A DNA stretch of 64,000 nt from Corynebacterium tuberculostearicum (GTDB lineage: Bacteria; Actinomycetota; Actinomycetes; Mycobacteriales; Mycobacteriaceae), in assembly GCF_030506365.1 (NCBI RefSeq), contig NZ_CP073092.1, positions 1,302,001 to 1,366,000 on the forward strand, read 5' to 3'. Below, piece by piece: positions 10,579-20,147 of this stretch (its first letter is position 1; each line of letters begins with the position of its first letter). Below the pieces are notes generated by a model. That model was not told the origin of the DNA. It saw only the letters and a list, made by a program, of their open reading frames with translations, and made no database searches. The position numbers and the translations under genes are program-made.

Positions 10579-12042
10579 TTAAGCCGGGCCTGCGCTAATC
10601 GACGCCCGGGATGTTCGCCGTGGCATCACTGGCCTGGTGCTGGTGTGGTGTCTTCTTTTTGCGGAAAACTGGACATAGACCAACAGCCCGATGCCGAGCG
10701 CTAAGGCGAATGCGCCCAGTCCGGCTAGGATCCCCGCCCAGAAGCTGCTTTGTGCGAGGGTAGAGGTATAGGCAGCGGCATCGGTCAGCACATTCTTGCT
10801 GTCCTTGTCCTCTGTGTCGGTTGCATCTGGAACATGCTGTGCACTGCGGGCGTCGGCGGACTTTGCTTTCGCACGGGACGAGGATTTTGTGCCCTTCGTA
10901 CTGGCGGACTTCTTCGCAGTCGAGTGGGAAGAACCGCTGGTGGAAGCGGAGCGGTGCGAGCCAGATGACGTGCTCTTGCCTGATTTTGCGGTGGAGGCAG
11001 ATTCGTTGACACGGCTAGCCGAGTGGTGGGTCGTAGTTTGTGAACCAGAACTGGACTTTTGCGCAGGGGCAGTGGATCGGGTTGATGTCGGAGCGTGGGA
11101 CTTTTGTGGCGCTCCAGACTTTTCAGTATTCGCCGGCTTTTTGTGCGTTGAGTGCTTGTCCTTTTCCGCTTCGTCAGGTGCGCCGCCGTCAAGGAATTTT
11201 TGGCCTTCCTGCAGGGTCTTCTCCAGTTCCTTGTCCAACCCGGCGATGGATTTGTCTACATCTTTGATGTCCTTTTCCAGTTGCTTGGGGCGGCTATCCG
11301 CGCCGTTGTCAGAACCAGTGGCTGCATCCGCTTCGGAATAGTCCACGCCGCACAGGTCCTTCGCCTCAGCTTGCTTTCCTACGAGGAAGCCGGCATGGAG
11401 GTGGTGGCGGGAGCCATCGGGAAGCTCAAAGGTAAAGCTCACCGCGTAGGTTCCGGGCTTGGTAAACGCAAATGCCGGGTGGGAATGCGAATTGCCTGGG
11501 TAATCCCAGGCGGATCCATCTTCAGTGTCCATGAGCACCGTGGGTTCGCCTAGCTCCGCCTGGTAGGCCACAATGCGCCCATCTTCTGGGCCCTGTGCGA
11601 TCGCCATGCTTAAGGTTGCGGTGTCATCAGCAGCGAGTAGGTCTTGGGATAGCTCCTGGGTGTTAAAGCCCAGCCAGGGAGCGGTGGGGTCTTGGGTTTG
11701 AGGCAGCACCCAGCCTTCTTCAGGAAGGGAACTATCGCCGAGCCCAGATAGTGGCTGTTTCAACCCATCGGACACCTCAATAGCAAAGGTCTCAGAGTCA
11801 TGGTTGATTCCCTTGTCATCGTCTTTGACCGTGAAGCTGAGGTCGCCGGAATCGCCGCTAAGCGCCATGTCTTGGTGGCCCTTGGTAATGAGATCGAGGT
11901 CGCTGGCGGAGCAGGCCGCGGCGGACTCTTCTGCGTGGGCGGAGGCGGGGGCTAAGGCAGCTACGCCCGTCCCTGAAAGTGAGCCGAGGCCGATGAGACT
12001 GGCAGCGCCTAGGGCCACCGTGGTGCGGCAGACTGGTTTCAT
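10579..12042 (-). CDS. Membrane-anchored surface protein with one wall repeat domain (choice-of-anchor M)
   Basis: Last gene of the anchored-repeat ABC operon, 487 residues. A signal peptide ends near APASAHA-EE. The actinobacterial wall domain (TIGR03769 type) follows: TKGHQDM, LPQTQDPTAPWLGFNTQ, then SHSHPAFAFTKPGTYAVSF. A long linker rich in Ser, Thr, Lys and Ala (about 270-420) would span the wall. One C-terminal membrane helix and a basic tail end the protein. No sortase motif was seen. ATG 12042 is chosen because it overlaps the permease stop as ATGA; the frame extends upstream to 12156. Probably presents the domain outside the membrane for the transporter. Confidence 0.85.
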   Translation of the reverse strand: MKPVCRTTVALGAASLIGLGSLSGTGVAALAPASAHAEESAAACSASDLDLITKGHQDMALSGDSGDLSFTVKDDDKGINHDSETFAIEVSDGLKQPLSGLGDSSLPEEGWVLPQTQDPTAPWLGFNTQELSQDLLAADDTATLSMAIAQGPEDGRIVAYQAELGEPTVLMDTEDGSAWDYPGNSHSHPAFAFTKPGTYAVSFTFELPDGSRHHLHAGFLVGKQAEAKDLCGVDYSEADAATGSDNGADSRPKQLEKDIKDVDKSIAGLDKELEKTLQEGQKFLDGGAPDEAEKDKHSTHKKPANTEKSGAPQKSHAPTSTRSTAPAQKSSSGSQTTTHHSASRVNESASTAKSGKSTSSGSHRSASTSGSSHSTAKKSASTKGTKSSSRAKAKSADARSAQHVPDATDTEDKDSKNVLTDAAAYTSTLAQSSFWAGILAGLGAFALALGIGLLVYVQFSAKRRHHTSTRPVMPRRTSRASISAGPA

Positions 12043-12965
12043 GAGGTAACGGATTCCTTTCGTGGGGTGTCGGGACGTGGGGCGTCGGGACGTGGGGCGT
12101 CGGAAAGCGAGGCACCGGCGTGCTTGCGGGCGCCGAGGAGTGGATGGATGGCCCAAACGCTTAAGAAAATAACGGTGAGCGTGAGCACGATCGTGGCGCC
12201 GGCCGGAAGATCAATGGCCCATGCCAGGTAGATGCCGAAGAAGCTCGATAGCGCGCCGATGAGGGCGGAAAGCCACATCATGGTCGCAAGATGCGTGGTA
12301 AGCAGGCGTGCCGTCGCGGCCGGGGTGATGAGAAGCGCGAGGACCAAGATATTGCCAATGGTGCTCACAGAAATGACCACGGCGGCGGTGACACACAGGT
12401 ACAACATGATGTCGAGCACAACAACGGGAAGCCCCATGGCGCGGGCGGTTTCCCGGTCCAGGCAGGTGGCGTTGAGCTGGGGGCCAAAAGCTACGACGAC
12501 GGCGATAACCAGTGCGCACACACTGGCCGCGACGATGATATCGCTGCGGGATACGCCGGTGAGCGAGCCGAAGAGAAAGCTGGTCAGCGAAGCACTATAG
12601 CCATCGGTGCGCGAGATGATCACCATGCCTAAGGCAAAGGCAGCGGCGAAGAAGATGCCGATGATGGAATCTGCCCGTACGTGGCGGCGCTGCGAAAAGG
12701 CGGCGATGAGCAACGCCACAACCGCACCGGCCACCGCGCCACCAACGAGCACGGAGGCTTGCAAAGCGAAGGCTATGGCCAAGCCGGGAAAGACCGCGTG
12801 GGAGACGGCGTCGCCGATAAAGGCCATGCCGCGCAGCACCACGTAGCAGCCGACGACGCCGCAGACGATGGCCGCAAGCACAGAAATACCTACTGCGCGG
12901 GCGAGAAAGTCGAGGTGGGGGTTAGCCAGGTCGCGGAGGAAATCGAGGAAGGAAATTTCTATCAT
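12039..12965 (-). CDS. Anchored-repeat-type metal ABC transporter, permease
   Basis: ZnuB/MntB-like integral membrane protein of 308 residues with eight or nine hydrophobic helices. It starts MIEISFLDFLRD and contains GCYVVLRGMAFIGDAVSHAV near residue 45, the hallmark of the ABC-3 (zinc/manganese) permease family. A basic Asp/Pro/Arg tail follows the last helix. The start ATG overlaps the ATPase stop as ATGA, and its own stop overlaps the next start in the same way, so translation is tightly coupled. It would move the metal delivered by the ZnuA-like lipoprotein into the cytosol. Confidence 0.92.
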   Translation of the reverse strand: MIEISFLDFLRDLANPHLDFLARAVGISVLAAIVCGVVGCYVVLRGMAFIGDAVSHAVFPGLAIAFALQASVLVGGAVAGAVVALLIAAFSQRRHVRADSIIGIFFAAAFALGMVIISRTDGYSASLTSFLFGSLTGVSRSDIIVAASVCALVIAVVVAFGPQLNATCLDRETARAMGLPVVVLDIMLYLCVTAAVVISVSTIGNILVLALLITPAATARLLTTHLATMMWLSALIGALSSFFGIYLAWAIDLPAGATIVLTLTVIFLSVWAIHPLLGARKHAGASLSDAPRPDAPRPDTPRKESVTS

Positions 12966-13690
12966 GCGGAGACTCCAATGGCAGAAAGCAGGGGAGAACC
13001 GGCGCGTACGCCAAAGGTTTGCGTCCACGGAGCGGTCTGGTGAAGAAGGCGCGGAGCGGAGTCATCGGCCACCACGGTGCCGTTAAAGAGGACCAAGCGG
13101 TGGCAGGAGTGCGCCGCTTCAGACAGGTTGTGGGTGGACATGAGGATGGCCTTGCCGCGCTGGGAGAGCTCTTCGAATAGCTCGAGTAGTGATTCGGTAT
13201 TGGGGGCGTCGAGGCCGGTGAAGGGCTCGTCGAGCAGCAGCACGTCTGGTTGCGTGGCGAGCGCTCGGGCGATGAGGACGCGTTGGCGCTGACCACCGGA
13301 GAGCTCCTCGATGGGGCGGGTGGAAAAATCTTCCATGTTTACCAGGCGAAGAGCTTCTGCCGCCGCGGCGTGGTCCGCGGCGCGTGGCCGTTTGAGCCAG
13401 CCAATGATGCCGGTGCGCCCGCTGAGTACGGTGCGGTACACATTAATGGGAAAGCCCCATTCCACCTCGTGCCGCTGGGGCACGTAGCCTACGATTCCCC
13501 CGATCTCTCGGGTACCGGAGGATGGGATGAGCCCTAAGATGGCACGCATAAGCGTGGTCTTGCCCGCGCCGTTGGGGCCTAAGAGCCCAATGAATTCGCC
13601 CGATCGGACCTCTAGGTTCGCACCTGTGATTACGCGCCGGTGGGATAGCGATACTTCCAGGTCGGCAACGGAAATGAGCGGTTTAGCCAC
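12962..13690 (-). CDS. Anchored-repeat-type metal ABC transporter, ATPase
   Basis: ZnuC/MntA-type ATPase of 242 residues. It has Walker A GPNGAGKTTLMRAIL, Q-loop YVPQRHEVEWGFP, signature LSGGQRQRVLIARAL, Walker B VLLLDEP, D-loop GLDAPN and the switch His in MSTHNL. It powers import through the neighbouring permease. The GTG start is inside the upstream gene with an 8-nt overlap (GTGGCTAA), the same architecture as the gene before it. The frame runs upstream to 13906, but that extension is a shadow of the surface-protein gene. Confidence 0.93.
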   Translation of the reverse strand: MAKPLISVADLEVSLSHRRVITGANLEVRSGEFIGLLGPNGAGKTTLMRAILGLIPSSGTREIGGIVGYVPQRHEVEWGFPINVYRTVLSGRTGIIGWLKRPRAADHAAAAEALRLVNMEDFSTRPIEELSGGQRQRVLIARALATQPDVLLLDEPFTGLDAPNTESLLELFEELSQRGKAILMSTHNLSEAAHSCHRLVLFNGTVVADDSAPRLLHQTAPWTQTFGVRAGSPLLSAIGVSA

Positions 13691-20081: not shown

Positions 20082-20123
20082 TGTTGGGGAGGCCTTTCTA
20101 CAGTTCTCATAATTCCACCAGAA

Positions 20124-20147
20124 ACTATAGAAAATGAGTTTCATAAA
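20124..20147 (-). promoter_or_regulatory. Promoter of the anchored-repeat operon with Zur-like box
   Basis: On the minus strand TATAGT (-10, plus positions 20124-20129) would start transcription about 36 nt before GTG 20081. Directly upstream, and overlapping its first bases, is ATGAAACTCATTTTCTATA, an imperfect inverted repeat close to the actinobacterial Zur pattern (ATGAAAATCATTTTCAT) as I remember it. A repressor bound here would block RNA polymerase when zinc is plentiful. Confidence 0.55.

Follow-up and report, generated by a model that had tools for sequence, protein, structure and literature searches.

A circularly permuted surface domain in the binding protein of a corynebacterial anchored-repeat (Znu) zinc uptake system

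A stretch of 64,000 nucleotides from Corynebacterium tuberculostearicum (contig NZ_CP073092.1, forward-strand positions 1,302,001 to 1,366,000; hereafter the window) carries on its minus strand a seven-gene operon which is an anchored-repeat (Znu) zinc uptake system, of a known kind and well conserved. The new point concerns its substrate-binding protein (SBP), whose extra module is a circular permutant of the domain displayed by the surface proteins of the same operon, placed at the position of the zinc-receiving loop of AztC. This arrangement is undescribed in the literature examined, as are the frequent placement of the HxD strand behind the HxH motif in the last domain of the wall protein and a single-chain fusion of SBP and ZnuE in C. 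urealyticum. The finding bears on how Gram-positive cells move scarce zinc from the surface to a membrane importer: with such a permutant sitting at a known hand-off loop, a "relay" becomes a specific, testable idea. We lean slightly towards a Zur-repressed, high-affinity Znu importer in which surface copies bearing HxD and HxH motifs capture zinc and hand it over via the permuted insert of the SBP.

Results

The SBP gene (14554..16065) encodes a lipoprotein-like protein of the ZnuA/TroA type, which scores well above the TIGR03772 cut-off (606.2 vs 350.45 bits) and is 95% identical, in the best segment, to the SBPs of C. tuberculostearicum FDAARGOS_993 and C. kefirresidentii. Its core fold is shared with AztC, positions 109-282 of the AztC chain aligning to SBP residues 320-491, and it falls below the cut-off of the AztC model NF040870 (180.3 vs 350 bits). 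Approximately residues 128-320 (15106..15684) form a copy of the surface domain with its halves exchanged, the C-half being placed first (15346..15648, HTH at residues 207-209) and the N-half second (15124..15330, GHLD at 252-255), up to an HxH motif at residues 318/320. By arithmetic from the AztC numbering, SBP H326 corresponds to AztC H138 and the insert falls on AztC residues 117-133, which is the D-loop stretch of that protein; the AztC D-loop and its three histidines are required for taking zinc from AztD (PMC7463823). The comparison was extended to a set of 117 loci, made up of the window and all 116 other transporter-bearing genomes among 242 Corynebacterium genomes (SBP threshold E <= 1e-60), and the C-half lies ahead of the N-half in 116 of them. 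Likewise, H318 and H320, just past the insert, are invariant in 101/101 SBP relatives. A second TIGR03772 match in the genome (C1:587226-587681) spans model positions 316-463 only and looks like a binding protein lacking the insert. The motif of C. diphtheriae ZnuA has been reported to lie "in the reverse orientation", its spacing being shorter (PMC12445094), and a partial literature search, including the available parts of that paper, returned no description of a permuted insert. A relative of the SBP is also present on a Pirellulales contig from a metagenome-assembled genome (L028), over query residues 20-441 and with 38% identity in the best segment.

The putative cleft ligands of the SBP, H75, H326, H392 and D468, form a His-His-His-Asp set that is invariant in the same 101 relatives. 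H392 aligns with a glutamate of the manganese-binding PsaA, which we take to be a metal ligand. Judged from the sequence, zinc is favoured over manganese because of this ligand set and because the top three Zur-operator matches stand in tandem upstream of the operon. An initial annotation of the window had proposed "zinc or manganese", and manganese importer models do match the ATPase and the SBP, below their cut-offs; nevertheless, the histidine found where the manganese-type glutamate stands, the Zur-like boxes and the zinc phenotype seen for the corresponding system in C. diphtheriae (PMC12445094) make a manganese importer extremely improbable, and of that proposal only the zinc part is retained.

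A Zur position weight matrix was built from six C. glutamicum sites (PMC2823685) and used to scan the 64-kb window. Its three best matches lie at 20126..20146 (19.5 bits), 20158..20178 (17.2 bits) and 20192..20212 (15.4 bits), while the next-best score anywhere in the window is 11.7 bits. Over 50 mononucleotide shuffles of the window the maximum averaged 12.2 bits and reached 18.9 bits at most, a value exceeded only by the first box; since the second and third each fail to beat every shuffle, the case for these candidate boxes is carried by their clustering. In fact, none of 200 column-permuted matrices placed all of its top three sites within 20050-20300, and the 20 that placed at least one there show an AT-rich background effect. 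The best Zur-like site falls between -300 and +60 of an operon open reading frame (ORF) start in 108 of the 117 loci (77 of the first 81 and 31 of the other 36); permuted matrices did not exceed 34 in the first 81. The exceptions are L075, L077, L109 and L123 among the first 81 loci, and L148, L149, L151, L161 and L175 among the others; in L148, L149 and L151 the upstream end of the contig falls inside the gene block, and the L161 contig is 3.4 kb long. Sites of at least 14 bits near the operon start number at least one in 101/117 loci and at least two in 63, with 14 such sites elsewhere in 2.26 Mb. In C. diphtheriae the transporter operon was placed in a predicted Zur regulon in 2010 (PMC2823685), and microarrays list the anchored-repeat genes of that species as repressed by zinc and Zur (PMC6711530). 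The three boxes also stand upstream of a divergent ORF (20243-21808), and Zur might touch that gene too (20126-20320). This ORF presumably encodes glutamyl-tRNA synthetase.

Seven copies of the surface domain are found in the operon, with HxH motifs starting at residues 207 and 693 of F813, 182 (HRH) and 394 of G533, 207 of the SBP, 198 of E296 and 224 of H525; three further HxH motifs, at F813 285, SBP 318 and H525 252, lie outside these sites. Each domain HxH is paired with an HxD, so that the motif D-x-GH-x-D of the initial annotation is a genuine partner of HxH; in two of the seven domains, that of the SBP and the second domain of G533, the HxD comes behind the HxH. Canonical order is seen, within approximate bounds, in the two F813 domains (19401..19982, HVD 59 and HTH 207; 17940..18521, HVD 549 and HTH 693), in the first G533 domain (17016..17537, HVD 49 and HRH 182) and in that of H525 (11377..11892, GHQD 93-96 and HSH 224), and also in E296 (13854..14420, GHVD 59-62 and HTH 198-200). 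In the second G533 domain (16299..16850, bounds approximate) no HxD precedes HVH 394, and a GHFD strand follows it at residues 445-448 (16323..16334). Across the 117 loci, a pattern search of the last domains of proteins encoded upstream of the SBP placed HxD only ahead of HxH in 106, only behind in 74, on both sides in 6 and on neither in 7. ZnuE has it ahead in 113/113, and for proteins encoded downstream of the permease this pattern placed it behind HxH in 0/152, a looser pattern having found one in L096 and L105; for the split among the upstream proteins Fisher's test gives p 2e-37, a value that is only indicative since the loci are related.

The HxD stands on exactly one side of HxH in 549 of 590 non-SBP domains, on both in 6 and on neither in 35, and HxH itself is kept in 573 of the 590 and in 116/117 SBPs; the conservation among orthologues on which the initial annotation had made its metal-binding proposal depend is thus observed. 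As most domains have one of each motif, whatever their order in the chain, we argue that the HxD and HxH of one domain probably form one site. The alternating position of HxD amounts to a natural experiment in favour of a single site per domain, a point which published mutants left unclear. The surface copies might instead act as receptors that recognise a zinc protein of the host or some other ligand, their HxD/HxH site being structural: the ZnuE domain gave no confident PDB match in the searches made, so that its function is not readable from a known fold, and C. diphtheriae ZnuE with its histidines replaced by alanine still responds to zinc in thermal shift (PMC12445094). We regard this as very improbable, given that mutation of three histidines abolishes ZnuE and ZnuG function in growth assays (PMC12445094) and that the one-sided HxD is maintained despite permutation.

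E296 (13683..14573) is a ZnuE-like membrane protein with a single domain and a short linker, its final domain strand ending at residue 237 and its hydrophobic segment beginning at 259. ZnuE is located between the SBP and the ATPase in 111/117 loci. Among the others, L132, L135, L161 and L175 are broken or cut, the ORF order of L178 was read differently, and in L170, from a C. urealyticum-like genome, the two proteins are fused. There the SBP ORF (8824-11517, in the coordinates of that locus) has 897 residues and no separate ZnuE gene precedes the ATPase; residues 131-588 resemble the window SBP (45%) and 620-834 ZnuE (47%), with a hydrophobic segment at about 860-889. An anchored-repeat SBP of C. 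urealyticum with 853 residues (P0117) has the same layout, is 98% identical and scores above the cut-offs of both TIGR03772 and NF038134. Because such a fusion joins a permuted and a canonical copy in one chain, it argues that SBP and ZnuE are likely to work side by side.

It could also be proposed that the permease receives its zinc mainly from ZnuE rather than from the SBP, which would then be accessory together with its insert. The short linker of ZnuE to the membrane and its place beside the transporter genes in 111/117 loci agree with this, as does the severe effect of znuE deletion in C. diphtheriae compared with the mild effect of znuA deletion (PMC12445094). We nevertheless consider it improbable: the cleft ligand set of the SBP is complete and invariant, and the permease has matches to TIGR03770 and, at a score under the cut-off, to AztB. 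The AztB family works with binding proteins of cluster A-I.

As to distribution, 117 of the 242 genomes carry both transporter and domain, 117 have no domain match and eight have domains but no SBP at the threshold; transporter and surface domain therefore occur together. One of these eight (G054) has a split TIGR03772 match above cut-off, and the remaining seven (G159, G161, G206, G208, G209, G264 and G334) each contain 1-3 choice-of-anchor M domains. Transporter-bearing genomes have 5-12 domain matches, that of the window having seven, and each locus encodes 2-6 domain ORFs besides the SBP, counted as raw ORFs including fragments, with a mode of 3 (57/117) and the window's number of 4 in 36/117. 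A larger number of surface components than in the two-protein version had been put forward as distinctive of this operon, together with a comparison of repeat counts across corynebacteria; these counts make both seven repeats and four additional proteins ordinary, and novelty by repeat number was rejected.

The variation in domain number, from 5 to 12 per transporter-bearing genome, fits a capacity role, and the wall and membrane copies could form a surface zinc store or buffer which holds the metal and does not pass it on directly, the SBP insert then serving specificity or stability. When ZnuAECB is missing, growth of C. diphtheriae is depressed by ZnuF and ZnuG, as by a sequestering sink; the loss of either is silent when the transporter is present, and storage was named by the authors as one option (PMC12445094). 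Such a store would leave unexplained why the SBP has its own copy of the domain in 116/117 loci, why ZnuE stays beside the transporter genes and is needed for growth (PMC12445094), and why the two are fused in one lineage; on balance we find it rather unlikely.

With regard to anchoring, no motif common to all was found when a shared wall signal was sought in ZnuF-type tails, and C. diphtheriae ZnuF is reported on the wall without a known sortase (PMC12445094). In L107-L146, many of the two-domain proteins encoded downstream of the permease carry at the C-terminus a membrane segment of the form GGFW-x-GL-x-x-G-x-G-x-M-x-L-x-GG, and a sortase motif is absent there.

The seven operon genes are tightly packed from about 20144 down to 10579, in the order F813, G533, SBP, E296, ATPase, permease and H525, and the five exported proteins are anchored as one lipoprotein (SBP), one LANTG wall protein (G533) and three proteins with membrane helices (F813, E296 and H525). 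F813 (17703..20144) has a C-terminal helix at residues 772-795 and no sortase motif; it probably starts at GTG 20081 rather than ATG 20144, and its relatives in L070 and L071 have ORFs of 792 residues. G533 (16065..17666) is ZnuG-like in its N-terminal half and carries its LANTG sortase signal at residues 497-501 (16164..16178). Cys27 of the SBP is lipobox-like and kept in 94/101 relatives, the strict lipobox pattern giving no match to it. The ATPase ORF (12962..13906) matches TIGR03771 from residue 98 onwards and its true start is likely downstream of the ORF start; the permease gene occupies 12039..13028. H525 (10579..12042) probably starts at ATG 12042, giving 487 residues, and joins its single domain to a membrane helix (470-500) through a stalk of about 207 residues rich in Ser, Ala, Lys and Thr (10750..11370).

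Permease and ATPase score above the cut-offs of TIGR03770 (400.3 vs 296.8 bits) and TIGR03771 (316 vs 268.8 bits). TIGR03769 has seven matches in the 2.47-Mb genome, all within the operon and six of them above the curated cut-off of 30.9 bits, the H525 repeat reaching 23.8; this repeat sits inside the choice-of-anchor M domain NF038134, which is above its own cut-off in all five exported proteins. For TIGR03773 (cut-off 190.3 bits) G533 scores 300.3, F813 179 and the other three exported proteins lower still. The AztD chaperone is absent from the matches listed for the seven operon genes in NCBIfam and Pfam (for the ATPase, the best 25 of 190 NCBIfam matches), and the Pht-type motif HxxHxH occurs in none of the five exported proteins. 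In its essentials the anatomy given by the initial annotation (seven genes, five domain-bearing exported proteins, their location and anchors, and the TIGR03769-03773 assignment) agrees with these results, and its idea that the surface modules bind metal and are coupled to an importer of the ZnuABC type is supported, with zinc as the metal in the C. diphtheriae work (PMC12445094, PMC6711530). Its relay of the metal inward through the wall is kept as a hypothesis, and it had overlooked both permutations as well as the candidate Zur sites.

Around the operon, no structured RNA exceeded Rfam gathering scores in 9200-20500. The product of a convergent plus-strand gene (9341-10516) is secreted, is rich in Pro and Ala at its N-terminus and has an esterase domain of PHB-depolymerase type, which scores above the Pfam Esterase cut-off and below those of NCBIfam. 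Antisense plus-strand ORFs of up to 363 residues overlap the operon genes across 10796-19559 and are probably an effect of base composition.

Discussion

In the mechanism towards which we lean, zinc scarcity would lead to expression of the operon, as the Zur-like boxes suggest and as has been demonstrated in C. diphtheriae alone. The mainly beta domain, with its putative HxD and HxH site, would be displayed on the wall by G533, on a stalk by H525, on a membrane helix by F813 and near the membrane by E296/ZnuE, and these copies would capture zinc. The permuted insert of the SBP may then dock with, or receive zinc from, the surface copies, ZnuE above all, and the metal could pass via the invariant HxH at 318/320 to the cleft ligands H75, H326, H392 and D468, from which the permease would import it. 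It is this direct hand-off from surface copies to SBP through the insert that we infer.

Several results weigh against this proposal. The match of the SBP N-half from a single sequence is weak (12.0 bits, the best of 1000 shuffles reaching 8.6), and the half-domain models were trained on hits that included the SBPs of the first 81 loci, so that the 117-locus counts are not independent, the single-sequence matches being independent of that training set. In the structure predictions, which were made for the SBP and ZnuE, the SBP junction at residues 315-320 has a predicted local distance difference test score below 50. The fusion is confined to one lineage (1/117 loci), with 1/120 listed relatives longer than 700 residues, and 16/117 loci lack a Zur-like site of at least 14 bits near the operon start. 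In C. diphtheriae, znuA deletion has only a modest effect, which the authors suggest is due to compensation by other binding proteins, and single znuF or znuG deletions cause no growth defect (PMC12445094); an obligatory route, whether by way of the SBP insert or of the wall proteins, is accordingly hypothetical. To these is added the zinc response of the ZnuE alanine mutant, the result for the ZnuG mutant being unclear (PMC12445094).

As a more tentative extension, which we find possible and somewhat doubtful, the SBP may have absorbed its own chaperone, a permutant of the surface domain having been grafted into the docking loop. Zinc could then move from one homologous domain to the next, first from the wall to ZnuE, then on to the SBP and finally, inside that one chain, to the cleft. 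In this view the C. urealyticum fusion would be the relay in one polypeptide, and the HxD strand of G533, moved next to the wall signal, might serve a neighbouring molecule.

Among the closest described systems are the families TIGR03769-TIGR03773 and C. diphtheriae Znu. All five models of the former are matched, each above cut-off in at least one operon protein, with F813 missing the cut-off of TIGR03773 and the H525 repeat that of TIGR03769. In C. diphtheriae, znuAECB and znuFG constitute a Zur-repressed zinc importer with the HxD/HxH motif (PMC12445094, PMC6711530). Zinc affects ZnuE, ZnuF and, less clearly, ZnuG in thermal shift, growth requires ZnuE and its histidines, ZnuF and ZnuG are located on the wall, and loss of the entire znuF-445 block prolongs the lag phase (PMC12445094). 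The two systems share an SBP with reversed HxD and HxH, ZnuE between SBP and ATPase, the domain itself, wall and membrane anchoring, and Zur control, here predicted from three tandem candidate operators. As C. diphtheriae comparator we used L109, in which 432 of 481 nine-residue words of the SBP recur in a protein labelled C. diphtheriae; SBP and ZnuE of the window are 50% and 52% identical to its own. Whereas C. diphtheriae Znu is arranged as two zinc-regulated operons, the window has one gene block. The first half of G533 resembles ZnuG (43.5%), the permuted second domain being an addition; H525, on its long stalk, best matches the second domain of ZnuF (29.7%), and nothing in L109 clearly corresponds to F813.

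ZepA was considered as a further relative, and the available text of PMC10957091, by which alone it was judged, contained no mention of anchored repeats, choice-of-anchor domains or corynebacteria. The streptococcal Pht proteins and AdcAII share with the window system multi-copy surface histidine modules proposed to feed a zinc SBP (PMC12445094), but their HxxHxH motif is different. AztABCD (PMC7463823) shares the SBP core fold, aligned zinc ligands and dedicated extra zinc-binding proteins; its helper is the beta-propeller AztD, in contrast to the wall or membrane domains of the window proteins, and where AztC has a flexible D-loop the window SBP is predicted to have a structured, permuted domain.

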